This document shows, piece after piece, positions 6,403 to 37,080 of a stretch of 64,000 nucleotides of DNA (position 1 is the first letter of the stretch; every line of letters begins with the position of its first letter). Made by a program: the position numbers and the translations under genes. The notes beneath the pieces are model-generated. The model was not told where the DNA came from. It worked only from the letters and a program-made list of their open reading frames with translations, and did no database searches. This DNA comes from Candidatus Woesearchaeota archaeon (GTDB taxonomy: Archaea > Nanobdellota > Nanobdellia > Woesearchaeales > DSVV01). The stretch is from contig JACPTB010000001.1 in the NCBI GenBank assembly GCA_016192995.1, positions 191,110 to 255,109 of the forward strand, given 5' to 3'.

Positions 6403-8006
6403 TGCTGTGTAATCGCAAGATATTCGCCCTGTGGATCAATAATAATCACATCGCAGCCATTCATATACTGCCGTGAAATAAGCAGTTTAGTGAAATAGGA
6501 TTTACCAGCGCCAGAAGTTGCTAAAATAATTCCGTTTGCATTGGTAAGATTAAAGATATTCTTGATATAGGGAATTTTGTTTTTATTTAATCCTAATAAA
6601 ATACCGTTATCATCTCCATCAAGAAAAGGAGAAGAAAACGGAAAAAATGCTGCTAATCCTTCAGTATGAATATTTCTTTTTATCTTCAGCTTGTTGTTAG
6701 CAAGTGGCAGCATTGAAGCATAGCCTTCCATCATCTGAAACATTGGTACATTGCTTTGTATCATTAATCCATCAAAATCTGCCTTTATTCGTTTCGCCAG
6801 TAAATGCGTTTCTTCTTTTGTACCTTTGCACATTACATATAATGAAACATCAAATAACTTCTGTTTTCCTTTCTGCAAATCTTCTAATACTTTCTTTGTT
6901 GAAGAGAATTTTATTTCCAATGATGGATTTAATATGCCTTTTTTTGAATCAGTATAAAGATCAGCTTGTTGTTTCTGCAAGTCTCTATTTAACTGGACCA
7001 TTGTAAAGTCTAATGGGTAAGGCTCAATATGAATACTGATGTCGTACTTTTCTCCAGAAGAGATTATTTTATCTAAGAAACCCATTTCAACAGAATGAGG
7101 GTAACCAGTTATTGCTAATATTTTGCAAAATAAATTATCAACTTCGAAATAATCAGGATAAAAGCTTATTTTTTCTGGCGCAAACATAAAATGAGCAATT
7201 TCTTTCACTTCCTCTGCTTGCGCTTCTTTTTGTTTGTTGTTTGCTATGTAGGAATAAAATAATTCAATCAACTTTTTCTCCTGCAATTGTTTAACTTTTA
7301 ATCCTAAGCTTGCTAATTTTTCACTGCATACTTTTACCTGCACATCCAAATGATCTTTTTCCTGAATTATTATGTAGAAATTCCTGTTCTGAATTTTATT
7401 CTCTTTGATTGTCTTCTTTACAAACTCGCAATAGGAATTTATCAGACTTTGCAGTAATTCTGCTTTCTTTTCATCTTTCGTTAACTTTATTTTTTCTTTG
7501 ATCTTATTGTCTGTATATCGTAGATGTTCAGAAAGCTGAATTGGTGTGCTCGTGATATGAATTTGAATAGGAAAATCAAGTCCATTGAGAAATTTCTGAA
7601 ATCCTACGATAATTGCATTCTTTTCTTCTTCAGTCTTGAGCATAAAATTGATAGGAGTTATTTCCAGAATTGCTAATTTATTTTTTGCTTGGTACACAGT
7701 TGCTTGTTCTATCTTCTTAATATCAACAATCTGTTTGAGCAGATTGCTTAATACTTCTATTTTTGGATTTCTGAGATAATTGTACCAGTGCTTGATTTTA
7801 TTGAGTCCATCAAAGAACATGAAAAAAGCTGCCATAAAGAGAATAAAAATAGAGAGTGAACCAGAAACGGAAATAGGCAAAGATGTTTTAAGAACGAGTA
7901 GAAATACAAGGAAGAAGGCAGGAAAAGCATACGCTAACTGCGGGAATGTCAAGCCAAAGATGATCTTTTCTTTGTGCTGCAATGGTGGGGGAATGTCGTA
8001 TGCCAT
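5961..8006 (-). pseudogene. virB4: PrgI-VirB4 fusion ATPase, truncated at about 6340
   Basis: Starting at the ATG at 8006 (MAYDIPPPLQHKEKIIFGL, the usual start; the TTG at 8048 is unlikely), the protein begins with a PrgI/VirB3-like two-helix membrane domain (about 10-65) and continues as a conjugation motor ATPase. The Walker A is GIILATSGAGKSYFTK, the Walker B IIIDPQGEY, followed by SKTVINPLDF, the normal VirB4 continuation. Just there, near 6340, homology stops. The frame then runs to 5961 through sequence that is the antisense of the GHKL gene. About 555 authentic residues remain and the C-terminal third of the motor domain is missing. It is the last gene of the minus-strand conjugation-like operon and is probably inactive. 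Confidence 0.85.
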
Positions 8007-8099: not shown

Positions 8100-8846
8100 T
8101 TATTGACTATTTTCCGTAGCATCCCAAAAATTAAGTGGTTCAAAATAAGGAGTTAAAATTAGATTACGTCCTAAAAAACTACTTCCGTAAGATACTAAAT
8201 AGAAAAACATAAATCCTAATGCAGCTGCTTTACCATTTATTACTATAAACTCATCTTTATTCTCCCAATTAACTAATCTTCCTTTTTTTATTAGTACACC
8301 TCTATTCAGAATACAAATTAAATCAAATAAATCATCCCATCTATTCTTATTTATTTCATCCAAGAGGGTTTCCCATTTAGCTCCTTCGTATGCAAAGATA
8401 ATTCTAAGTGGTCTACTGAGAGTAGCACCTGAAGAGATAGAAGCACCAACATTAATTTTTAATTCTTCAACTTTTTTAAGATTATTGCCTGCTTCAAGTA
8501 GTTTATCTCTAGTAAGATTTGATTTTACTTCAATAACTGCAAATGTACCTTCAGCAAAATGTATATTATCAGAACCCACATGCAATATTGGCGAATCCTC
8601 TCTTAAGATAATTATATCTTCTTGACCTGTTTTATTGTTCATTGAATCCCAAATCTCACCAGATTTAACTGATAATTTTGTTGGAAGTACTTTGCTCAAA
8701 AATTCTTTACAAAATAACTCTCTATTTCGTCCTAAATTTGCTGAAGCATTTTGTTCAGCTGAACGTTTATGTTCAGAAAGCAAAACATCTGCTGTGCACT
8801 TAAAGTATCCAAATAACACTGGTCTATTTTTAGGATCTATTTCCAT
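8100..8846 (-). CDS. DUF6602-type protein, probable PD-(D/E)XK nuclease fold
   Basis: The 248-residue protein opens with a helical segment and LGRNRELFCKEFLSKVLP, then KSGEIWD, GQEDIIILRE and FAVIEVKSNLT. The spaced E/D...D...E-x-K pattern (ED in GQEDIII, E-V-K in VIEVKS) is that of a restriction-endonuclease fold. The LGRNRE...GEI-D layout is what I know as DUF6602. The C-terminal third is hydrophobic in part (AAALGFMFFYLVSYGSSF). It sits between virB6-like and virB4 in a conjugation-like operon, 51 bases after the former's stop. That is an unusual place for such a gene and suggests an inserted defence or anti-defence cargo. Cleavage activity is inference. Confidence 0.7.
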   Translation of the reverse strand: MEIDPKNRPVLFGYFKCTADVLLSEHKRSAEQNASANLGRNRELFCKEFLSKVLPTKLSVKSGEIWDSMNNKTGQEDIIILREDSPILHVGSDNIHFAEGTFAVIEVKSNLTRDKLLEAGNNLKKVEELKINVGASISSGATLSRPLRIIFAYEGAKWETLLDEINKNRWDDLFDLICILNRGVLIKKGRLVNWENKDEFIVINGKAAALGFMFFYLVSYGSSFLGRNLILTPYFEPLNFWDATENSQ

Positions 8847-13957: not shown

Positions 13958-16900
13958 TTGTTAGTAGTTTGCCTGCTCGTCTTTACAACATTAATCTCTC
14001 TTGTTTATGCCGCAGTTTATCAACCAACAGGCTATCAAGGCTCTCCTTATTCTGATGCTAATCCAAATTTTGCTGGAACGGATAATGCAGCAGGTAGTGG
14101 CGGTTCAGCTGTTTCTGTTTCAAATAATGATAGTGACTCTACTGCATTAGAGCAAGCACTATCGCAAGAAAATGTAACTGTAAGGATTTCTGCATCTGAC
14201 TTTGACCCAAATTCAACGCTGTCTGGAAATTATACCATTGGGACATCAACTGGAAGTGAGAAAGGAAATGCGCAGAATGGAACAGAAGTAAACGGAGCAG
14301 GCGGTGCAGGGACATTAGGCAGTGACGGAGATTCTGCTCAGGCCAAAGCAAGCATAGAGAGGGATGGTTATTACGATTTTGGTTCATCAATTAATGGTTC
14401 TGTTTGGATTAAAAAAACTACAAATGGAAATGCAGATGCCAGTACTAATTATTTATTTAATTATACTTATTGTTATTATAATGATTCATGGAATTGCGAC
14501 GCAGAAACGCAAAATACAGCAAGCGGGGTCACTACTAATTATCAAGCATATACAATCACAAACAAAATCATAAATAGTAGCTGGGGTGGAGGAAATGACG
14601 TTACTAATTACTCATTGCGTGTGAGAGTAAGAGGACACGACGAACAAACAGCAGCTTTAAATCCTGGGTTGTGGTCTGGATTAAGTAATGTGACTGCAGC
14701 TGCTAAAAATAAAACAATCCAACACAGATATAAATGGATTTACTCTTATAACAATGGGACTACTTGGAATGATGGAACTTCATTCAGCAACTGGAATTCC
14801 ACTCTTTTGAGGAATGGCACAAGCACTTTTAATGTCGTGAATCATATTACAGAAATATTTAGTAATATAACTCATTACGGCTTGTATGTTGAAGTTAATG
14901 GTTCTGATGCTTTATATGGAAACAGTGATTTATTCAATGCAACAGGAAATGTCACGCAGTCCAATCTAAATCTAACACAAACGGCTTTTACAACTGTCAA
15001 TACAACATATTTCCCGTCAACAGATACAGCAAACACAACTTTATGGTTTTATGGTGAACTTGGATATGCTTACGGTGCAGATGCGAATGATTATGGGGGA
15101 ACAGGGCATCCTGTAAATGTTTCTTTATACAAGCCCACACCTTCCGGTTATTCATTTATTGAATCTAAATTTCCAACATTAAATGCAAATGGCGCTTTCT
15201 CAACTAATTTTACTTTATCTATTAGAGCACAAGGCGGAACATGGCTAATAAAAACAAATTATAATTCATCAACTGACACATTTCCGGAAAACTCAAAAAC
15301 TTTTATTGTCAGAATTATAGCAAATCAAACAAAAACTTATGGCTTTTACGGAGAAAACACCTCTGCGATATATAATTTAGCAAATACTACAAACTTGCAA
15401 GGAGAAATAAGAATAGAGACATTTATTTACAACAATCCAGAAGGCTTTACACCAAACTGTAATGTAACAATTCAAGGCAAATCCACAGAGCAGATGACGT
15501 GGAATAGTACAGGATTATATTGCTACAATAATACCCAAGCACCAACATCAACAGGCGAAAAATCTGTACAAACAAATTTCACAATAAATGGAAGTTCTGG
15601 AGCAACAGAAGATAGCTTTTCTTCTCAAAACGCTCTGCTCAATGTAACAGATATTTTGATTATTAACGCTACCAATTCAATTTTTAATGTTTATAATAAA
15701 GGCGAGAATGTAACGCATTGGGGAAATGTTTACAATATAAGAAGCGAGCCGTTGCAAGGAAAAACGATAATAATAAATTTGATTAATTCTTCTGGAATTG
15801 TACAAAATTCAAACTCTTCTGTTTCGCTTGATGGCAACGGCTTTTTTAACAAAACCATATCAATTGGCTTTACAAACTCTTCGCAAAATAATGCTACTGG
15901 AGAATCATATCGCACCAGAGCATTGTTTAACTCAAACAATGGAAACAGTACGGAAACCACGTTTTCAGTTTCAAGTCTATTAAGTGTCACAAACATCTGG
16001 ACTGATAAACAAGAAGAGGGAACAGATTTTCCAACAGGGAGTGAAGAAACATCATTCTTTATCGGTGCCGATGTACTTTATGTAAGAACTCATGTAACAA
16101 ATGTTAGAGGAGAAAATGTTTCCGATAAAATGGTTTATTCTAATGTTACAAAAACAGATAGAACTTTGGAAGAAACAAGAAATTCATGGAATTCTTCTAC
16201 AAATTCTTATGGCTGGAATCCATTCTACAATATAAATGTCATTGCTCCTGCTAACCAGAGAACTGTAAATAGCCTTGCTAATGACACTAGTGGGAATTCT
16301 GGTTCTTCAACAGAAACTATAACATATTCTCCAAGCTATACTGGCAATCTTAATCTTGATTTATGGATCGCAAAAGAAAGTGGAAATACAGACGGACATA
16401 GTTTTGAACAAGGAGACAATATTACTATTTATGCCTTATTTAACAAAGACGGAACGGCTACAGATGTCGCAAATAACAATAGTCAGATTACACTTTATTA
16501 TGGAAATAGTTCTGTCTATATTTCCCAAACAAGTATGACTTATGTAAGTGCTGGTTTGTATAAATATAATTTTGTAATTGCAAGCGATGCGGTTAAAACG
16601 TCATATTTTACAAGAGTTTATGGTTTGCTAAGTGGAGCTGATCAGTATGGTTCTGTTTGGTATAGAGTTAGTGAGCCACCAACAACCACTTATACAAGTT
16701 TAAATATGCATATAAGCACTGGTTCTACTTATTACACTTCTGATACTTTAACGATTAATGCCTATATGTATAATCAAAATGGGAATGCCGTGACAAATGC
16801 AAGTGTTAATTTAACAATAAATTATCCTAACGGAACAATATTCATTTCAAACACAAATCTGAGCAATGATGGAAATGGAGATTATTCTTATTCAACTAAT

Positions 16901-19261: not shown

Positions 19262-19365
19262 ACGGAATTCCCCCCACGACGGACTGAAAATTGCCCCTTG
19301 ATACTTATTCTTGATGGCTCACCGTGTTCGCTTGATTGAATACGCCCCTGAAATTACTTTGATTT
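19262..19365 (-). repeat. Right copy of intergenic repeat framing the surface-protein locus
   Basis: Read on the minus strand this has AATTTCAGGGGC, GGGGCAATTTTC and CGTGGGGGGAATTCCGTT in the same order as 13568-13645. The part 19293-19352 (GCCCCTT...GCTCACCGTGTTCGCT...GCCCCTGAAAT) also matches 20530-20590 in direct orientation, on the other side of the Fic gene. The rest of the spacer to 19460 shows no gene. Confidence 0.65.
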
Positions 19366-19476: not shown

Positions 19477-19517
19477 AAACCGAAAGTTTTATATAGTATG
19501 TGCTCTTACAATATTAT

Positions 19518-20456
19518 ATGGCTTACATTGAAACCATAAAACGGAACAAAAAGGAATATTACTACCTCACAAAAAATGTAAGGCTCAGCTTAAACAAATG
19601 GAAGAAGATAAGGGTTTTCTTAGGAGATAAAAAGCCTTCACAAGAAGAACTAAAAAAATATGCTCAAGAAATAGAGGATAAATCAAAACCGTTTTCAAAA
19701 ATCTCAAATTATACCTATCTTTCAGAGCATGATGCAGAAACCTTGCAGGATCTAAAAGAAAGTTATAGCACATGGCTTAAACAAATTCCAAAAAGTGCCA
19801 AGGAAAAGCTGAATGAGGATTTTGTTATAAGATTTACATATCATTCCAACGCAATTGAAGGTAATAGGCTGACATTAAGGCAAACTGCTCTAATTCTTAA
19901 AGATAAAGTAATACCTTCTGGAGTAAGAGCAGAGGATTATAACGAAGCCATAAATGGAAAAGAATGCTTAGATTATATTAAATTGTATGAAGGCGAATTA
20001 AACACCAAACTGCTCGAAAAAATAAATGGGATTCTTACTAAAAATACAGGAGTAGTTTATGGAGGAAGAATACGTTTTTTTAATGTACAAATACAAGGCT
20101 CAACTCATGTTCCTCCACCCCATACAGAAGTTAAAAAGCATATGCTAAATTTTTTAAAGTGGTATAGTGCAAACAAAAATAAACTGCATCCGTTTGAATT
20201 AGCAGCTTTGATTCATGCAAAATTAACATGGATACATCCTTTTGAAGATGGAAATGGCAGAACTGCAAGAACCGTTATGAATTTTATCCTAATGAAAAAG
20301 GGTTTCCCTATGTTTTTTATTCCATTTGAGAAAAGAGAAGAATATTACCAATCATTAGATGTTGCTGATAAAGGCAATTATAAGGAATATATTTCTAGAA
20401 TGTTGCAATTGATTATAGATCAAATAAGAAGTTACGGGCACAATAAGAAAGAATAA
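19518..20456 (+). CDS. Fic-family AMP-transferase
   Basis: From the ATG at 19518 the 312-residue protein has an N-terminal helical region, then TYHSNAIEGNRLTL, the inhibitory-helix motif S-x-A-I-E-G-N whose Glu blocks ATP (class II Fic), and the catalytic HPFEDGNGRTAR (H-P-F-x-D/E-G-N-G-R). The flap GSTHVPPP precedes it. Fic enzymes transfer AMP or another nucleotide moiety to a hydroxyl on a target protein and are kept silent until the Glu moves. A GTG at 19500 would add six residues. A TATA box (GTTTTATATAGT, about 19487-19498) ends 19 bases before 19518, fitting a leaderless message. The gene is alone between 15-base inverted repeats, a cassette-like setting. Confidence 0.92.
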   Translation: MAYIETIKRNKKEYYYLTKNVRLSLNKWKKIRVFLGDKKPSQEELKKYAQEIEDKSKPFSKISNYTYLSEHDAETLQDLKESYSTWLKQIPKSAKEKLNEDFVIRFTYHSNAIEGNRLTLRQTALILKDKVIPSGVRAEDYNEAINGKECLDYIKLYEGELNTKLLEKINGILTKNTGVVYGGRIRFFNVQIQGSTHVPPPHTEVKKHMLNFLKWYSANKNKLHPFELAALIHAKLTWIHPFEDGNGRTARTVMNFILMKKGFPMFFIPFEKREEYYQSLDVADKGNYKEYISRMLQLIIDQIRSYGHNKKE

Positions 20457-20479: not shown

Positions 20480-20708
20480 TTACTTTTAACTATAACACCA
20501 CCGATCCTTACTACTATTTTTGTGAGTGTGCCCCTAAACGTAGTTCTTTATTGCTCACGGTGTTCGCTAGATAGAAACGAGCCCCCGAAAAAACTTGCTT
20601 CGCACCCCGCTGCGCTTTCCCTACGCAGGCGCGTTATTTGATAAGATAATGTTACTCTCACCCGCTTCGCTCAGGTCACTTAACAGCAACTGCATACGTT
20701 AAGAAGCA
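20480..20708. other. Gene-free spacer with direct repeat and GC-rich tract
   Basis: The part 20530-20590 repeats 19293-19352 (GCTCACGGTGTTCGCT core). It is followed by a more GC-rich tract (CTTCGCACCCCGCTGCGC and ACCCGCTTCGCTCAGG) unlike the surrounding AT-rich DNA. No frame of note. It separates the Fic cassette from the convergent pdxT gene. Confidence 0.5.
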
Positions 20709-25957: not shown

Positions 25958-26957
25958 GGACAAATATCTTGTTAACGCGATGCATCTCAATCCACATATG
26001 CATACTGAAGTTGACTATGCTCGTTCAGGATATGGTGATGGTGTTGTTGAAGCAGGAAAAAAGAACAAAAATGTAGTTGTTCTTTGCTGTGATTTAACTG
26101 ACAGCACAAAATCTGCGGATTTTAAAAAACAGTTTCCTCAGCGTTTTGTAGAAGTTGGTGTAGCAGAACAAAACATGGCAGGTATTGGAGCAGGCATGGC
26201 AGTTGAAGGCAAGATTCCTTTTATCTCAAGCTATGCAGTTTTTAATCCAGGAAGAAATTGGGATCAAATTCGCGTCAGCATTTGTTATACTAATGCTAAT
26301 GTCAAAATCATTGGCGCGCATGCTGGCATTTCAGTTGGACCAGATGGTGCAACCCATCAGGCGCTTGAAGATATTGCAATGATGCGGGTGCTGCCTAACA
26401 TGACCGTGCTTTGCGGAGCTGACTACGATCAAACAAAAAAATTAATCATTAAGGCAGCAAAATACAAAGGACCTGTTTATATCAGATTTGGCAGAGAAAA
26501 GGTTCCTAAGGTTACAACCGCAAAAACTCCCTGCACCATTGGGAAGGCAGATGTTTATCGGCAAGGAAAAGATGTTGCTGTTATTGCTTCCGGACCTATG
26601 GTTTATGAAGCATTGGCTGCTGCTGTTGAATTGCAAGAACAAAAAAAACATAAAAAAATAAGCTGTATGGTGATTAACGGTCATACCATTAAGCCGCTGG
26701 ATAAAAAAACTATTATTGCTGCAGCTAAAAAATGCAAAGCAGTAGTTACTGCAGAAGAACATCAATGGCATGGCGGATTAGGCGGAGCTGTTGCTGAATT
26801 GTTAGCAAGCGAATATCCAGTTCCTGTTAAACGAGTTGGTATTCAAGATACCTTTGGTGAATCAGGAAATCCTGATGAGTTAATGGTTAAATACAAGATT
26901 AAAAAGAAGGATATTATTACTGCGGTAAAGGCTGTTTTGAGGATGAAGAAGAAATAA
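25935..26957 (+). CDS. Transketolase, C-terminal subunit
   Basis: The pyrimidine-binding and C-terminal domains of transketolase are present: GYGDGVVEAG, CCDLTDSTKSADF, FVEVGVAEQNMAGIGAGMA with the ThDP-activating Glu, and FISSYAVF. The GVQDTFG-type tail appears as GIQDTFGESGNPDELM. Start 25935 overlaps the partner gene; an ATG at 25980 (MHLNPHMHTEV) also fits the family length. The end of this gene (26907-26951) is found again, decayed, at 28330-28374, on the far side of the two-gene cassette that follows. Confidence 0.93.
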   Translation: MKQKKVVKDKYLVNAMHLNPHMHTEVDYARSGYGDGVVEAGKKNKNVVVLCCDLTDSTKSADFKKQFPQRFVEVGVAEQNMAGIGAGMAVEGKIPFISSYAVFNPGRNWDQIRVSICYTNANVKIIGAHAGISVGPDGATHQALEDIAMMRVLPNMTVLCGADYDQTKKLIIKAAKYKGPVYIRFGREKVPKVTTAKTPCTIGKADVYRQGKDVAVIASGPMVYEALAAAVELQEQKKHKKISCMVINGHTIKPLDKKTIIAAAKKCKAVVTAEEHQWHGGLGGAVAELLASEYPVPVKRVGIQDTFGESGNPDELMVKYKIKKKDIITAVKAVLRMKKK

Positions 26958-26984
26958 ATACCTATTTACTTGTCAAACAGAATA

Positions 26985-27629
26985 TTACTTGTCCACCTTT
27001 GACACTTTCTTTTGTATTACCGTGTCTGCAAAATCACCAATAAGTTTTATAGCTCTCAACCGTTTTTTTATTGTTTTAAAGTAATAATCATATTCTATTT
27101 TGGTCAATAAAACACCTTCAATTATTTTTTTAATAATTTCTATCTGTTTTGGTTTGAATAATATGTGAAGTGCATATTGGATATCATATTCTTTAGCATT
27201 ACTGATTTTTTGAGCTAATCCTATTTGCTGTTCAGTTTCGTAACGTTTTTTTTGTCCAATAAAATCATCTTTATATTCTTCGAATGAGAAAATAAATCTT
27301 TTCACTGTTTTATTTTCAATTTTTTCCAGTTTTGGTATAAGGATATTATCCGATTCTATTTGTTTAAGTATTTGTGCAGTGAGAGATAAAATTGCTTTTA
27401 GTTCCTTCCATAGGTTTTTTTCTTTAGCTTTCTTAATTAAGATATCAAGATCAAGATGTAGAGATGACTCTTTTGTACTAAGATATATAATAAAAGGAAT
27501 TGCTTTAATAAACCTTTTTTCTTTAATTGAGAGTATTTTGATTATAATCTCTTCGATGACTATCGTTTTTTCTACTTTGAAATAAGCATATCCTATCTTT
27601 TCCAATAATGATGTTATGTCTTCTGCCAT
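26985..27629 (-). CDS. Helical partner protein of AbiEii-like nucleotidyltransferase, unknown
   Basis: The 214-residue, Lys- and Ile-rich protein is predicted all-helical with no recognisable motif. It overlaps the nucleotidyltransferase gene upstream by 16 bases and is thus its operon partner. In nucleotidyltransferase toxin-antitoxin systems the partner is commonly an antitoxin with a winged helix; I do not see one here. Role by position only: antitoxin or second subunit. Confidence 0.6.
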   Translation of the reverse strand: MAEDITSLLEKIGYAYFKVEKTIVIEEIIIKILSIKEKRFIKAIPFIIYLSTKESSLHLDLDILIKKAKEKNLWKELKAILSLTAQILKQIESDNILIPKLEKIENKTVKRFIFSFEEYKDDFIGQKKRYETEQQIGLAQKISNAKEYDIQYALHILFKPKQIEIIKKIIEGVLLTKIEYDYYFKTIKKRLRAIKLIGDFADTVIQKKVSKVDK

Positions 27630-28228
27630 TGTTGTATCTTCTCCGCATCTTCTGCTGTAATTTTATATCCAAGAGACTTAATAAATTTGATAAATTCAAG
27701 AAGTTTGAACTTTGGATTTTCTGATTCTGAAATATCCATAGTTAAAATAAATTTTCTGATTAAAAGGGAAATCTTTGTATCGGTCTTTTCAAGAATATGT
27801 TTAATGTCTTCAAAATCTCTTGCATCACCTCTATCTATTTTTGTTATGCAAATATCGTAGAAATTTAAGGCACGCAGTGTAATCTGATCAAACTCCCTTA
27901 GAATAACTGATGCATCTTTTGATGGTTTTACCAATTGTACATTGACAATGTAATCATCAAGATAGATATCGATAATTAAACCATCAGTTGTCAACCATCG
28001 CTTTTCAGCTATTTCTTTGAAGCCTAATGATTTGAATAGTGGTAATAGCAGCCGGTAACTTTTAGATGAAATAATGAAATCAAGGTCTCGTGTTGATGAT
28101 TTAAGATCTAATAGGGTTAATGCTGTTCCGCCAAGTGCAACAATAGTTAGCGGTTCATCTATAAACAAATCAAGTTTTTGGATAAATGCAATAAGATCTT
28201 GCTTGGTTGTTTCTTTGGCGTTTTTCAT
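27614..28228 (-). CDS. AbiEii-like nucleotidyltransferase (putative toxin)
   Basis: The 204-residue protein has the nucleotidyltransferase core VALGGTALTLLDLKSSTRDLDFI (GG start, D-x-D as DLD), IIDIYLDDY as the third acidic strand, and KIDRGDARDFEDI, the K...R-x-x-D-x-x-D-I motif of the AbiEii/DUF6036 group. Members transfer nucleotides to RNA such as tRNA acceptor ends and act as toxins of type IV-like systems. A perfect 15-bp stem (28272-28309) lies upstream and could be its operator. The pair occupies a cassette between the real and the decayed end of the transketolase gene. Confidence 0.8.
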   Translation of the reverse strand: MKNAKETTKQDLIAFIQKLDLFIDEPLTIVALGGTALTLLDLKSSTRDLDFIISSKSYRLLLPLFKSLGFKEIAEKRWLTTDGLIIDIYLDDYIVNVQLVKPSKDASVILREFDQITLRALNFYDICITKIDRGDARDFEDIKHILEKTDTKISLLIRKFILTMDISESENPKFKLLEFIKFIKSLGYKITAEDAEKIQQWQKT

Positions 28229-28329: not shown

Positions 28330-28383
28330 AAGGATATTATTACTCCAGTGAAAGCTGTGTTGAGGATGAAGAAAATGAAGTAA
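28330..28383 (+). pseudogene. Decayed second copy of the transketolase 3' end
   Basis: The sequence from AAGGATATTATTACT to TTGAGGATGAAGAA matches 26907-26951 with about six differences in 45 bases. In the same frame it still encodes KDIITPVKAVLRMKK followed by a stop, against KDIITAVKAVLRMKKK in the intact gene. No upstream part of the gene is present. The copy lies 1.4 kb downstream in direct orientation, with the AbiEii-like cassette between. Confidence 0.9.
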
Positions 28384-28404
28384 ATTGACTCTTATTCTTT
28401 ATTT

Positions 28405-29091
28405 TTATTTATTCTTTATATCATTATCATTCTTCTTGTTCTTTTCCTGAACAGCATCATACAATTGCTTTAAATATTTTTGTTCAACAAAAACATATTT
28501 CTGCAGTTCTTTAATAGTTTCTTCCAAATCATAGATTATCCAAGTGTCTCCATGCTGATACTGCCAGATTGCTTCATCAATAAGATATTGCCAATTGAAA
28601 TATTTGTCTTTTTGGATAATTGTTAAGATATCCTCAAAATCCTTGTCACGGTCAGTTACTGATTTAAGCATTACGATATGTTCAGTACGGAGAGCATTTA
28701 TGGTTAATGTGTATTTGCCTTTGAACTGATGGGCAGCAAATTTATCTTCCTTCATTTTTTCACTTATTTCTGTTCTGAAAATCTTTTTTACAAACAGATC
28801 AAATCTCATGTCATCATCACGTTTAAACATTAAAGGCCTATATTTATCTCTTAATTTTTCTTCAATGTAAATTTTAAGAGGGCTTGTCTCTTTAAAGCCA
28901 AGTAATTGTATAACACGCATGAATTCAGTTCTTTCTTTTTCTTGTTCAAACAATAGGTCAATATCTTTTGTATCGTTTTTATAACCATAAAACATCATTG
29001 CAGTTCCCCCAAATGCATAGCAAACAATATCACTATTAATCTGCTGGGCAATGACATTAAATAATTTCATTTGATCTTCGTGTGTTATCAT
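28405..29091 (-). CDS. DUF6036-type nucleotidyltransferase
   Basis: The 228-residue protein has the core AFGGTAMMFYGYKNDTKDIDLLF (GG..., D-x-D as DID), a later DMRFDLFVKKIF acidic strand and KSVTDRDKDFEDI, the K...R-D-x-D-F-x-D motif. It is the same superfamily as the 27614 gene but only distantly similar. Its start overlaps the preceding winged-helix gene's stop by 4 bases. The pair is probably a toxin-antitoxin or regulatory module acting on RNA. Confidence 0.8.
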   Translation of the reverse strand: MITHEDQMKLFNVIAQQINSDIVCYAFGGTAMMFYGYKNDTKDIDLLFEQEKERTEFMRVIQLLGFKETSPLKIYIEEKLRDKYRPLMFKRDDDMRFDLFVKKIFRTEISEKMKEDKFAAHQFKGKYTLTINALRTEHIVMLKSVTDRDKDFEDILTIIQKDKYFNWQYLIDEAIWQYQHGDTWIIYDLEETIKELQKYVFVEQKYLKQLYDAVQEKNKKNDNDIKNK

Positions 29092-29708
29092 AAATTCTCC
29101 GTTATATCATTAATATTGAATGGTATATAAACTTTCCATATATTTCCTATCTCAGGAAAATTCTTTTTAAACAGTTGTGTTAATTGAATCCATGAAAAAA
29201 ATGAACTAATCTTTCTGTACTTCTCCGGCATTTTCCTTACTTTCATAAACATTCGCGCAACATCATGCAATGCTCCTACTTTCTGCCAATTGCTTTTTTG
29301 CTTTGCAAGCTGATATAATTTAGGCCAGTTTTTAATATATTTAAACAAATGCAAACTTGCAAGTATAACACGAAAACTCTTTGTTTCAATGGCATCAATT
29401 AATGCATCTTCAACAGTATACACGCCATGCACCTGGTGGTCATACCAAGGATTGATTTTCATATGCGGCGAATATTTATTGATAATATCAAACATGCCAG
29501 GATCGCGTTTTCGCTGCTTTCGCATCGTTATATTATAGAGTCTTTTTGTTCTGCCTCTACCTTGAACAGTAACGTATTCTTGTTTTTTTAATTTTGTGAG
29601 CAGGTTTAATGCTGATTGTTTATTGATCTTAAGAGCTTCTGCTACGGTTTCAACGGTATGCAGTCCTTCTAGTTTTCGTAATAATTCATCTAATCTGTCT
29701 TGTCTCAT
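29088..29708 (-). CDS. Winged-helix regulator, partner of nucleotidyltransferase
   Basis: The 206-residue protein starts with a winged helix (about residues 1-65): VETVAEALKINKQSALNLLTKL as the helix-turn-helix and VTVQGRGRTKRLYNITM as the wing. A C-terminal helical domain of about 140 residues follows, with HQVHGVYTVEDALIDAIET. Antitoxins of nucleotidyltransferase systems commonly have this plan, binding DNA with the N-terminus and toxin with the C-terminus. First gene of a two-gene operon. Confidence 0.75.
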   Translation of the reverse strand: MRQDRLDELLRKLEGLHTVETVAEALKINKQSALNLLTKLKKQEYVTVQGRGRTKRLYNITMRKQRKRDPGMFDIINKYSPHMKINPWYDHQVHGVYTVEDALIDAIETKSFRVILASLHLFKYIKNWPKLYQLAKQKSNWQKVGALHDVARMFMKVRKMPEKYRKISSFFSWIQLTQLFKKNFPEIGNIWKVYIPFNINDITENL

Positions 29709-31238: not shown

Positions 31239-31274
31239 TTTTTATGATAAATAAATTAGATCTATTATTTATTC

Positions 31275-31328
31275 ACATTATCCATGATACACTCGTGATT
31301 CTGCAGTTCTTCCATGGTTTATTTAAAT
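31275..31328 (-). pseudogene. Decayed second copy of the NTF2-like gene's 3' end
   Basis: Plus-strand 31275-31325 aligns without gaps to 32775-32825, exactly 1500 bases apart, at roughly 75% identity. In the same frame on the minus strand it would encode HGRTAESRVYHG followed by a stop, against HGKIVESRVYLG and stop in the intact gene. Only the tail of the gene is present. The ATPase gene 31425-32735 lies between the two copies. Confidence 0.85.
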
Positions 31329-31424
31329 TGGAGTATGTTAATCATCATAATCACCGTAAATGTATTATATTTCCCCCTCAAAACGAAAGATTTAAATAGT
31401 ACAATAATGTACTAAAATTGTACT

Positions 31425-32735
31425 ATGGATAAGACAATAAAAACGATACTGGTGGAATGGAAAAGCAAAAAGATTCCCGAGGTAATTCCCAGAGAAATCA
31501 ATCTTCAGGAGTATCTCCATCTAAAGGTTAACAAGATAATAGTATTAAACGGATTTAGGAGAGTTGGAAAAACTTATATCCTATACGGTTTGGCCAATGA
31601 GCTTCTTAAATCAAATTCTCGTGAAGAGGTGGTGCATATTAATTTTGAAGACGAAAGAATACCTCTTAGGACAGAATTTTTAAGCAATCTGATTCCTGCT
31701 GCAGACGAGTTATTCAGCAAAAAAATTAAATACCTGTTTTTGGATGAGGTGCATAATATCCCTGGATGGAGCAAATGGCTCAGGAGGATATACGACAATC
31801 AGGATATGCATATTTTTGTTTCAGGCTCTTCTTCAAGAATGTCTGAAGAGGAAATACCAACAGAATTAAGAGGGAGGTTTCTTGAAATTAAAATATTCCC
31901 TTTATCCTTTAAAGAGTTCTTAAATTTTAAGGAACTTAGTTTTGATTTTAAGCTGTTAGACTATTCAGAAAAGGAGAGGCCTCTTATCCTAAAAGCGCTT
32001 GCCGAATATCTCATTTTCGGAGGGCTGCCTGAAATAACCCTGATAGACGAAAATAAAAAATTTGAATTGGCGCAGTCTTATTATGCTACTCTTATCAAAA
32101 GGGATATTGTTGAAAGATATAATATAAAGAATGAAGTATCCCTAAAAGCACTATTAAAACTGCTTCTCGATTCAAGAGAATATTCTATAAGTAAGAGCTA
32201 CAATAATCTTAAAAGTTTAGGCTATGAAATCGGTAAATCCACACTCCAGAAATATATATCGTATATTGAAAACTCATATTTTGCATTTAGCGTGCCTATT
32301 TTTTCTTATAAAATAAAAGACCAAATGCAGTACCCAAAAAAGATTTATTTTATAGATAACGCATTTATCAGCTCAATTTCAACGAAGTTCTCAAATAATT
32401 TTGGAAGACTTTACGAGAACATTGTTGCCGTTGAACTGAAAAGGAGAAAAAAAGAGTGTTATTACTGGAAGAATGCCGAAAAAGAGGAAGTGGATTTTGT
32501 CTTAAAAAATGATTCCAAGGTTAATCAGCTGATACAGGTTTGTTATGATTTTTCTGACCCCGACACAAAAAAGAGAGAGATCAAAGTCTTACTAAAAGCC
32601 AGTAAAGATTTAAAATGCAAAAATTTATTGCTGATTAACCAAGATTATTTTGGTGAAGAAGAATCCGAGTGGTTTGGGATAAAAAGAAAGGTTAAATTTA
32701 TTCCCCTTTGGAAATGGATTTTGGGAAAAGTTTAA
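31425..32735 (+). CDS. AAA_14/DUF4143 family ATPase
   Basis: The 436-residue ATPase has Walker A NGFRRVGKTYIL (K49), Walker B YLFLDEVHN followed by PGWSKWLRRIYD, and sensor FVSGSSSRMS. A DUF4143-type C-terminal domain ends with EKEEVDFVLKND and a winged-helix region around KSLGYEIGKSTLQKYI. It is an accessory family member like 22338 and 57574 but not a recent duplicate. The TATA-like GATTTAAATAGTAC is about 25 bases before the ATG. It is the only gene of a 1.45-kb segment bounded by the real and the decayed tail of the NTF2-like gene. Confidence 0.87.
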   Translation: MDKTIKTILVEWKSKKIPEVIPREINLQEYLHLKVNKIIVLNGFRRVGKTYILYGLANELLKSNSREEVVHINFEDERIPLRTEFLSNLIPAADELFSKKIKYLFLDEVHNIPGWSKWLRRIYDNQDMHIFVSGSSSRMSEEEIPTELRGRFLEIKIFPLSFKEFLNFKELSFDFKLLDYSEKERPLILKALAEYLIFGGLPEITLIDENKKFELAQSYYATLIKRDIVERYNIKNEVSLKALLKLLLDSREYSISKSYNNLKSLGYEIGKSTLQKYISYIENSYFAFSVPIFSYKIKDQMQYPKKIYFIDNAFISSISTKFSNNFGRLYENIVAVELKRRKKECYYWKNAEKEEVDFVLKNDSKVNQLIQVCYDFSDPDTKKREIKVLLKASKDLKCKNLLLINQDYFGEEESEWFGIKRKVKFIPLWKWILGKV

Positions 32736-32777
32736 ACGAAAGTATAAAAAAAATAAAAAATCATTTAATTCTGGTGA

Positions 32778-33245
32778 TTATCCAAGATAAACCCGTGATT
32801 CAACTATTTTTCCATGCTTTACTTTAAACTCTTCAGCTACATACGTATCAGGTTGTCCAGAAACTGTTCGTTTATATTTAATAAAAATAGTTCCTTTAAT
32901 CTCTACATCTTTTTTAACATCAACAAGATACGCATCTTTTTTCCACGGAGTTTCTCTGACATTCTCAAATCCAGATTCAACACCATCTACGGAAATAGCT
33001 TCAAGATTATATTGTAACGTAGGAAAACATAGAAATGAATTTCCCCACCATCTACGTAGTTCAGATTTTCCCACTATTTTACCTTCAGGATTATCATCTC
33101 TACGTAATCGTGGACTATAGTGGGTAGCATTATCATCGTAAAGATCTAATAGTTCATCAAGATCTCTTGTATTAAAATAAGTGACCCACTTTGTCCCAAT
33201 ACCTCTTAGTTGTTGCTTGACAACATCTAATTCATCCAGCGTCAT
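32778..33245 (-). CDS. NTF2-like/SnoaL-like domain protein
   Basis: The 155-residue protein has the cone-shaped NTF2-like fold pattern: helices with WVTYFNTRDLDELLDLYDDN, ATHYSPRL, a loop KSELRRWW, then long strands ending EEFKVKHGKIVESRVYLG. Such proteins bind small molecules or act as polyketide-cyclase-like or unknown enzymes. No active site can be assigned. Its promoter faces the palindromic element at 33338-33588. Confidence 0.8.
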   Translation of the reverse strand: MTLDELDVVKQQLRGIGTKWVTYFNTRDLDELLDLYDDNATHYSPRLRRDDNPEGKIVGKSELRRWWGNSFLCFPTLQYNLEAISVDGVESGFENVRETPWKKDAYLVDVKKDVEIKGTIFIKYKRTVSGQPDTYVAEEFKVKHGKIVESRVYLG

Positions 33246-33337: not shown

Positions 33338-33588
33338 GGCAGTGTAGAAAATCTCGGCATAGCCTCGGTTTTGGCATCAGTTCGGCTTGTTAAGGGTTTA
33401 TTTGGTTGGATTTTTCTCTCTATAAATATAATCCCGACTCCCTCAATAATATAAATCAAGGATTCATAAGTTGGCTTGCGTCTGGGATTATAAGACTTGC
33501 CTATCGGCAAGGAACTCCGAAAAATCCCCATACTTAAACTTGAAGAGCCTCACAAAAAGATGCCAAAAACTACATTTTCTACACTGCC
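33338..33588. mobile_element. 251-bp MITE-like palindromic element with 9-bp target duplication
   Basis: Perfect 15-base terminal inverted repeats (GGCAGTGTAGAAAAT at 33338-33352, complement at 33574-33588) are flanked on both sides by the direct repeat TTTCATTTA (33329-33337 and 33589-33597). Inside are stems 33369-33378/33559-33568 and 33408-33416/33519-33527. An extra hairpin (33427-33435/33484-33492) is absent from the related element at 36923. There is no coding capacity. The duplication shows insertion by a transposase acting in trans. Confidence 0.88.
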
Positions 33589-36922: not shown

Positions 36923-37080
36923 ATGGGATCTGGTGAAAATCTTTCAGGTTTTAGCGCCAGTTCAGCTTTTGAAGTTTACATCGATTGGATTTTTCTCTCT
37001 GGCACTCCGAAAAATCCTCGATATTCCCTAAGAAGAGCTTCACAATAAGGCGCTAAAACTACATTTTCACCAGAGCCCAT
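36923..37080. repeat. 158-bp palindromic element related to 33338-33588
   Basis: Outer stem 36923-36940/37063-37080 pairs at 17 of 18 positions. The second stem 36948-36958/37049-37059 is perfect. The inner stem GGATTTTTC/GAAAAATCC (36987-36995/37009-37017) is identical in both elements. The stems differ in sequence from the 33338 copy but stay paired. No target duplication is visible. Confidence 0.8.

Follow-up and report, generated by a model that had tools for sequence, protein, structure and literature searches.

An ATPase gene bracketed by working and decayed copies of an NTF2-like gene end in a Woesearchaeales archaeon: probable insertion with long target duplication

The window, a stretch of 64,000 nucleotides from contig JACPTB010000001.1 of a Candidatus Woesearchaeota archaeon, carried an intact NTF2-like gene whose 3' end recurred on the far side of a neighbouring ATPase gene. 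The locus comprised the following features:

31277..31327, minus strand: distal repeat, a decayed NTF2-like gene end with 80.8% identity to the proximal copy
31328..32776: putative insert between the repeats, 1449 bp (1500 bp including one repeat)
31425..32735, plus strand: cargo gene for an AAA_14-DUF4143 ATPase of 436 aa (Pfam; PADLOC PDC-S01)
32777..32828, minus strand: proximal repeat, the working 3' end of the NTF2-like gene, stopping 1 base beyond the stop codon
32778..33245, minus strand: intact NTF2-like (SnoaL_2) target gene (Pfam PF12680, E 1.8e-9)

Self-BLAST of the window aligned 31277-31327 with 32777-32828 as a direct repeat, 80.8% identical over 52 columns with one 1-base gap, and a weaker extension (31243-31327 / 32743-32828) matched at 71%. 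The original prediction had the tail of the NTF2-like gene recurring in the same orientation at roughly 75% identity without gaps; the recurrence was borne out and the identity came near the measured values, but the alignment is not gap-free. The repeat scored 34 against a shuffle maximum of 23, and as 0 of 2000 dinucleotide shuffles of the 186-base gap reached the observed score, a chance origin is excluded. Read on the minus strand, the NTF2-like gene terminates in KVKHGKIVESRVYLG and the distal copy in INHGRTAESRVYHG, the latter being dead because of a 1-base deletion and an upstream stop. The closest database relatives of the NTF2-like gene were two bacterial ones (GTDB contigs) with the ends ASRVYHG and ASRVYHS; their RVYHG and RVYHS resemble the decayed copy, whereas the working gene has RVYLG; this one residue hints at an older state retained in the decayed copy. 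The NTF2-like gene was absent from 98 relatives, so that no empty site for this locus was available among them.

As predicted, the only gene inside the repeats was of the DUF4143 type (31425-32735; AAA_14 and DUF4143 by Pfam). It was also the only open reading frame there, and no transposase or integrase was found in the insert. Made up of 97 bp upstream of the ATPase gene, the gene itself and 41 bp, the insert was in the same size class as other bracketed ATPases. The protein matched PADLOC PDC-S01 models over residues 19-434 (E 2.3e-103) and is, judged by its sequence, a candidate defence gene product; PDC-S01 has been described as a fusion of an ATPase with a PD-(D/E)XK domain, and as the fourth most common (candidate) defence system in prokaryotes, enriched in archaea (PMC12988326). 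Its AlphaFold2 model (pLDDT 89) consisted of a predicted AAA+ domain and, after it, helical and mixed alpha/beta regions, and the nearest solved structure was a Walker-type ATPase of Pyrococcus abyssi (2qen), with ORC/Cdc6 and clamp loaders next. In the C-terminus, E331, E355 and D357 were invariant and PD-(D/E)XK nuclease-like. An intact D...E-x-K catalytic set was absent from the C-terminus of the window protein, which reads EVDF...IQVCY, with QVC at the catalytic E-x-K position where other family members have IEVK. Since QVC replaces E-x-K, the window ATPase may lack nuclease activity. Viral contigs were searched for close relatives of this ATPase, and none turned up.

Three bracketed cassettes lay inside 14 kb of the window: the one at the NTF2-like gene, one at a transketolase gene and one with a Fic-like gene. 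The transketolase case had been put forward as the same arrangement with another target and cargo, which proved correct, its repeats (26907-26959 vs 28330-28385) being 84% identical with two genes between them. The features of these two further cassettes were:

26907..26959, plus strand: proximal repeat, 3' end of the transketolase gene (0 of 2000 shuffles)
26985..28228, minus strand: transketolase cassette cargo, an unknown gene (26985-27629) and a DUF6036 nucleotidyltransferase gene (27614-28228)
28330..28385, plus strand: distal copy of the transketolase 3' end, which keeps the frame at its end (KVKDIITPVKAVLRMKKMK*)
19292..19359: left repeat of the Fic-like cassette, 77% identical over 71 columns to 20529-20596
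19500..20456, plus strand: Fic-like gene inside the repeats, named by eye without an HMM
20529..20596: right repeat of the Fic-like cassette

The repeat of the Fic-like cassette had only two copies in the sequence searched. AbiE, SoFic and several PDCs have been reported as compact candidates enriched in DPANN archaea (PMC12988326), and the three cassettes of the window match that list in kind. Other repeats and modules were seen in the same window. A second two-gene cassette (28405-29708; nucleotidyltransferase-like and winged-helix) adjoined the transketolase cassette, with no flanking repeat detected. The repeats flanking a PutA-like gene (33367-33579 and 36947-37068) belonged to a dispersed family with dozens of copies in the genome, several of them arranged as paired inverted units. 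A 199-bp inverted pair (2365-2560 / 13387-13189; 93%) lay beside a tyrosine-recombinase-like gene (1484-2275, named by eye).

We aligned the left flank of DUF4143 ATPase genes to the right flank with a cut-off score of 28, using reversed flanks and swapped flanks as controls. Direct repeats were found at 11 of 68 ATPase loci in a first set (this genome and its relatives). A second, independent set, drawn from further genomes of the same order, gave 16 of 51, with 0 reversed and 0 swapped in either set; pooled, 27 of 119 loci passed against 0 of 119 with reversed or swapped flanks. The flank search suggested by the original prediction was thus strongly positive. Among non-ATPase genes of similar size, 6 of 180 passed, two of these being dispersed repeats and three tandem paralogs. 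Curation, which removed six doubtful loci from the 27 (L271, L266, L252, L233, C10 and L093), left 21 of 119 ATPase loci vs 1 of 180 other genes (p about 2e-8), in genomes that were mostly multi-contig, with mechanical ORF calls and with loci of one genus not fully independent of each other. At about three quarters of the ATPase loci no repeats were seen. A third set, mostly from other orders, gave 15 of 40, but also 5 inverted and 2 swapped passes; it was less clean because tandem ATPases have common 3' ends. Two of the removed loci, L266 and L252, were weak matches of 61%. In L271 (3201-4763) the ATPase gene lay between tRNA-Gly gcc and ccc genes, 97% identical over 74 bp, and a duplicated tRNA gene was rejected there, as these are different isoacceptors. 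A DUF4143 ATPase gene broken into two pieces, with an in-frame stop, was seen at about 8350-8900 of L023 (C13), with direct repeats (7389-7433 / 8247-8291) near its start.

The flanking repeats were variable in length, mostly 39-132 bp, and the bracketed unit was mostly 1.25-1.55 kb, comprising one ATPase gene preceded by about 20-160 bp and followed by about -20 to 135 bp. At most ATPase loci the repeats were found only at their own locus, and they therefore represent duplicated target sequence rather than pieces of an element. An all-against-all comparison of the repeats gave only short chance matches between ATPase loci and no common core, and related inserts (71-73% protein identity) in different targets had no exact ends in common. 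A repeat family that happens to overlap gene ends was rejected for most loci on account of these locus-specific repeats; the PutA-flanking repeats and several control hits did represent a dispersed family. In about half of the ATPase cases the target was promoter or intergenic DNA, roughly as frequent as gene ends, and gene-end duplication is therefore one outcome of long target duplication. Accordingly, the predicted cassette, flanked by one functional gene end and one decayed duplicate of it, stands, while gene 3' ends as its defining feature do not, and gene-end specificity was rejected as the essence of the phenomenon.

We also scanned gene ends directly, comparing the last 75 bases of every open reading frame in the sequence covered (549 kb from this genome, 389 kb from relatives) with the sequence 0.25-6 kb downstream, alongside three control directions. 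Matches were concentrated in the downstream direct orientation, some of them paralogs or dispersed repeats. Four further targets emerged, with names given by eye where there was no HMM call. A SIMPL-domain-like gene (L142) was duplicated at 98% over 82 bp, 100% over the last ~75 bp, the repeat ending at the stop codon, with HATPase and DUF4325 genes as cargo. A translin-like gene (L020) had 32 bp duplicated, the far copy being the end of an ATPase gene. The end of an RNase P p30-like gene (L083) was duplicated around an HTH-nucleotidyltransferase and a HEPN-like protein, and that of an asparaginase-like gene (L183) around a nucleotidyltransferase and HepT. The asparaginase-like target (14850-15374) has an in-frame stop near its start, yet both copies of its 3' end preserve the reading frame. 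Matches at L138, L109, L106 (start), L188, L195 and L186 were set aside as dispersed repeats, internal protein repeats or tandem paralogs. In a low-copy direct-repeat scan of 1.65 Mb, the cargo was mostly ATPases and toxin-antitoxin (TA)-like pairs, in proportions that are not unbiased, since the sequence was partly picked around ATPases. TA-like cassettes devoid of any ATPase left the same long-repeat footprint, and in three arrays (L255, L259 and L270) three copies of one target end bracketed successive cassettes.

Tandem ATPase genes formed arrays of another kind. In L326, L327 and L329, from other orders of the class, and in L093, from this family, neighbouring ATPases were 46-69% identical over the first 1.1 kb and 81-98% over the last 120-240 bp. 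Five tandem DUF4143 ATPase genes stood in L327 (3585-10527; G324, one contig), nearly identical over the last ~240 bp and about 65% over the remainder, and three in L326 (3725-8078), where the common 3' ends reached ~40 bp beyond the stop codon. Shared tails of this kind would fit insertion into, and duplication of, the 3' end of a resident ATPase gene; alternatively, the ends may have undergone gene conversion.

Comparison of congeneric genomes provided empty sites. The congener G006 carried the p30-like gene without a cassette and as a lone gene, with nothing left to suggest a second. Its gene end and flank aligned at 85% over 91 bp with the G001 far copy and the sequence downstream of it. 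The far copy is therefore continuous with the native flank, the cassette splitting the gene from its native downstream sequence. The repeat was single-copy in both congeners at L110, where no ATPase was seen next to the gene. Insertions distinguishing G001 from G006 were accompanied by a duplication of 54 bp, of about 13 bp, or of none, the last group consisting of an AAA ATPase gene (L090 4605-5972) and a PIN-domain-like pair. Two-gene modules of a ~80-aa protein and a YgiT-like zinc-finger protein (by eye) differed between the two genomes (L179 15263-15955 and L195 3944-4523), the L195 module with a ~13-bp target duplication. An offset that varies through zero fits template switching or host repair better than a recombinase.

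We consider it likely that the NTF2 locus is explained by insertion with long target duplication, a process recurrent in this archaeal order. Direct observations are the repeats and their statistics, the size of the unit, the absence of both an integrase and common termini, and, at one empty site, a far copy that runs on into the native flank; we infer that the NTF2 locus itself arose by such a cassette insertion. A segment of ~1.45 kb, holding the PDC-S01-type ATPase gene and its own upstream region, would have landed next to the NTF2-like 3' end and, in doing so, duplicated 51 bp or more of target sequence. Of the two copies, the one adjoining the gene body would keep the NTF2-like gene intact and under selection, while the other, on the native flank, would be left to decay. 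The same process would insert PDC-S01 ATPases as well as MNT/HEPN and nucleotidyltransferase pairs without a mobility gene of their own. As to the molecular route, we tentatively propose template switching during host replication or repair, which we hold possible but would not lean on: a nascent strand would quit the target, copy the incoming ATPase DNA and rejoin the target slightly behind its exit point, thereby duplicating a stretch of it.

Several findings count against insertion with target duplication as the explanation. Gene-end repeats tend to finish no more than about 10 bp from the stop codon (SIMPL 0, NTF2 +1, transketolase +2, L239 0, L080 0, L278 -4), which is tighter than random duplication predicts; about three quarters of the ATPase loci lack repeats, six of the 27 high-scoring loci are doubtful, and the 98 relatives offer no NTF2-like gene as an empty site. 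The proximity to stop codons speaks for site-specific integration, in which mini-elements carry an attP that mimics a gene end, a tyrosine recombinase acts in trans (for instance a resident Xer/SSV-type integrase) and the repeats are attL and attR. Archaeal integrative elements occupy the 3'-distal ends of protein genes and leave direct repeats (29-69 bp in crenarchaea; PMC6563490), the arrays at L255, L259 and L270 re-use one site, and the window has the tyrosine-recombinase-like gene mentioned above. However, the cassettes examined had no integrase, different loci had no core in common, and a separate gene-specific att site would be required for every cassette. Duplications down to about 13 or 0 bp, and promoter and intergenic targets as common as gene ends, also speak against integration of this kind, and we regard it as unlikely.

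Similarly unlikely, in our estimate, are mini-circles, by which cassettes would loop out with one target copy and re-enter the same gene of relatives by homologous recombination. Such circles would account for the missing integrase, for both cargo orientations, for the single-site arrays and for tandem ATPases alike only over their last 120-240 bp (L326, L327 and L329), but they leave the first capture of a new target unexplained and would have homology of only 40-130 bp to work with, and no circles were seen. They could also account for the two transketolase copies, in which 6 of 7 differences fall at third codon positions; the transketolase ends of relatives were all too distant to tell which copy is older. 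Pooled over loci, the excess at third positions does not stand out convincingly from plain decay, and codon positions in decayed copies were consistent with neutrality of the far copy and constraint on the near one. We dropped the argument that a third-position bias proves a foreign donor, because duplication and decay also predict about half of the changes there.

Far less probable is tandem duplication and loss, by which a full second NTF2-like gene at 31277 was mostly deleted upon arrival of the ATPase. A remnant of 51-52 bp is too short to reveal a longer ancestor, and tandem paralogs do occur in these genomes. In the fresh cases (L278 and SIMPL; 98-100% identity), though, the copy stops abruptly after just 53-82 bp, repeats also lie in promoters and intergenic DNA, and the empty p30 site holds one gene. 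The least probable reading, to which we give hardly any weight, is that the ATPase is a self-mobilising nuclease-ATPase making staggered breaks 40-130 bp apart, as its invariant E331, E355 and D357 and the fusion of ATPase and PD-(D/E)XK domain in PDC-S01 (PMC12988326) might invite, since many bracketed ATPases, that of the window included, have QVC instead of E-x-K and TA-like cassettes without an ATPase have the same footprint.

Under insertion with long target duplication, the cassettes suggest that compact defence genes spread bare, with no recognisable mobility enzyme. More broadly, although we rate the chance at somewhat under even, small-genome archaea may possess a general recombinase-free route for defence cassettes of one or two genes (PDC-S01 ATPases, MNT/HEPN, AbiE-like and perhaps Fic), leaving duplications of 40-130 bp at gene edges and building arrays, including those of ATPases with variable heads and constant 3' ends.

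For an insertion sequence or transposon, shared terminal repeats and a fixed target duplication of about 2-15 bp would be expected, whereas related inserts here end at different places and their repeats are variable and mostly 39-132 bp. Integron gene cassettes are likewise small single-gene units in arrays, but here there is neither an integron integrase nor a recombination site common to the repeats. Integrase-mediated integrated mobile genetic elements (iMGEs) of Thaumarchaeota lie in the 3' ends of archaeal genes and, like the cassettes here, have direct repeats over the 3' end of a protein gene that is left intact (PMC6563490); they are larger and encode an integrase or casposase, whereas the cassettes here have one or two genes, no recombinase and, in some insertions, repeats down to zero. 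By description only, the PDC-S01 cargo can be likened to arCOG03166-like AAA+-HTH-nuclease proteins (PMC4158269). In the literature searched, in which few subscription papers were covered, we found no report on the insertion mode of DUF4143/PDC-S01 genes. The closest counterpart is the insertion of restriction-modification (RM) units with long target duplication (Nobusato et al. 2000 and Furuta et al. 2010, as cited in PMC3874152; example in PMC1643837). As presented in those sources, it likewise involves defence or addiction genes, no known mobile element, long variable repeats of ~100 bp and an empty site with a single copy. The cargo there is RM, whereas here it is one AAA+ ATPase or an MNT/HEPN-type pair; the hosts there are bacterial, whereas here they are archaea with small genomes, with frequent targeting of gene 3' ends and promoters and with single-site arrays. 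Measured against these accounts, the process seen in the window works like RM long target duplication but lies outside the RM cases they describe, and is new in its cargo, its host and its arrays. The long-repeat footprint is a searchable mark of recent insertions that reveals which genes travel in this way, and it ties PDC-S01 ATPases to the little-studied RM 'insertion with long target duplication', by which link the mechanism becomes testable through comparison of congeneric genomes.
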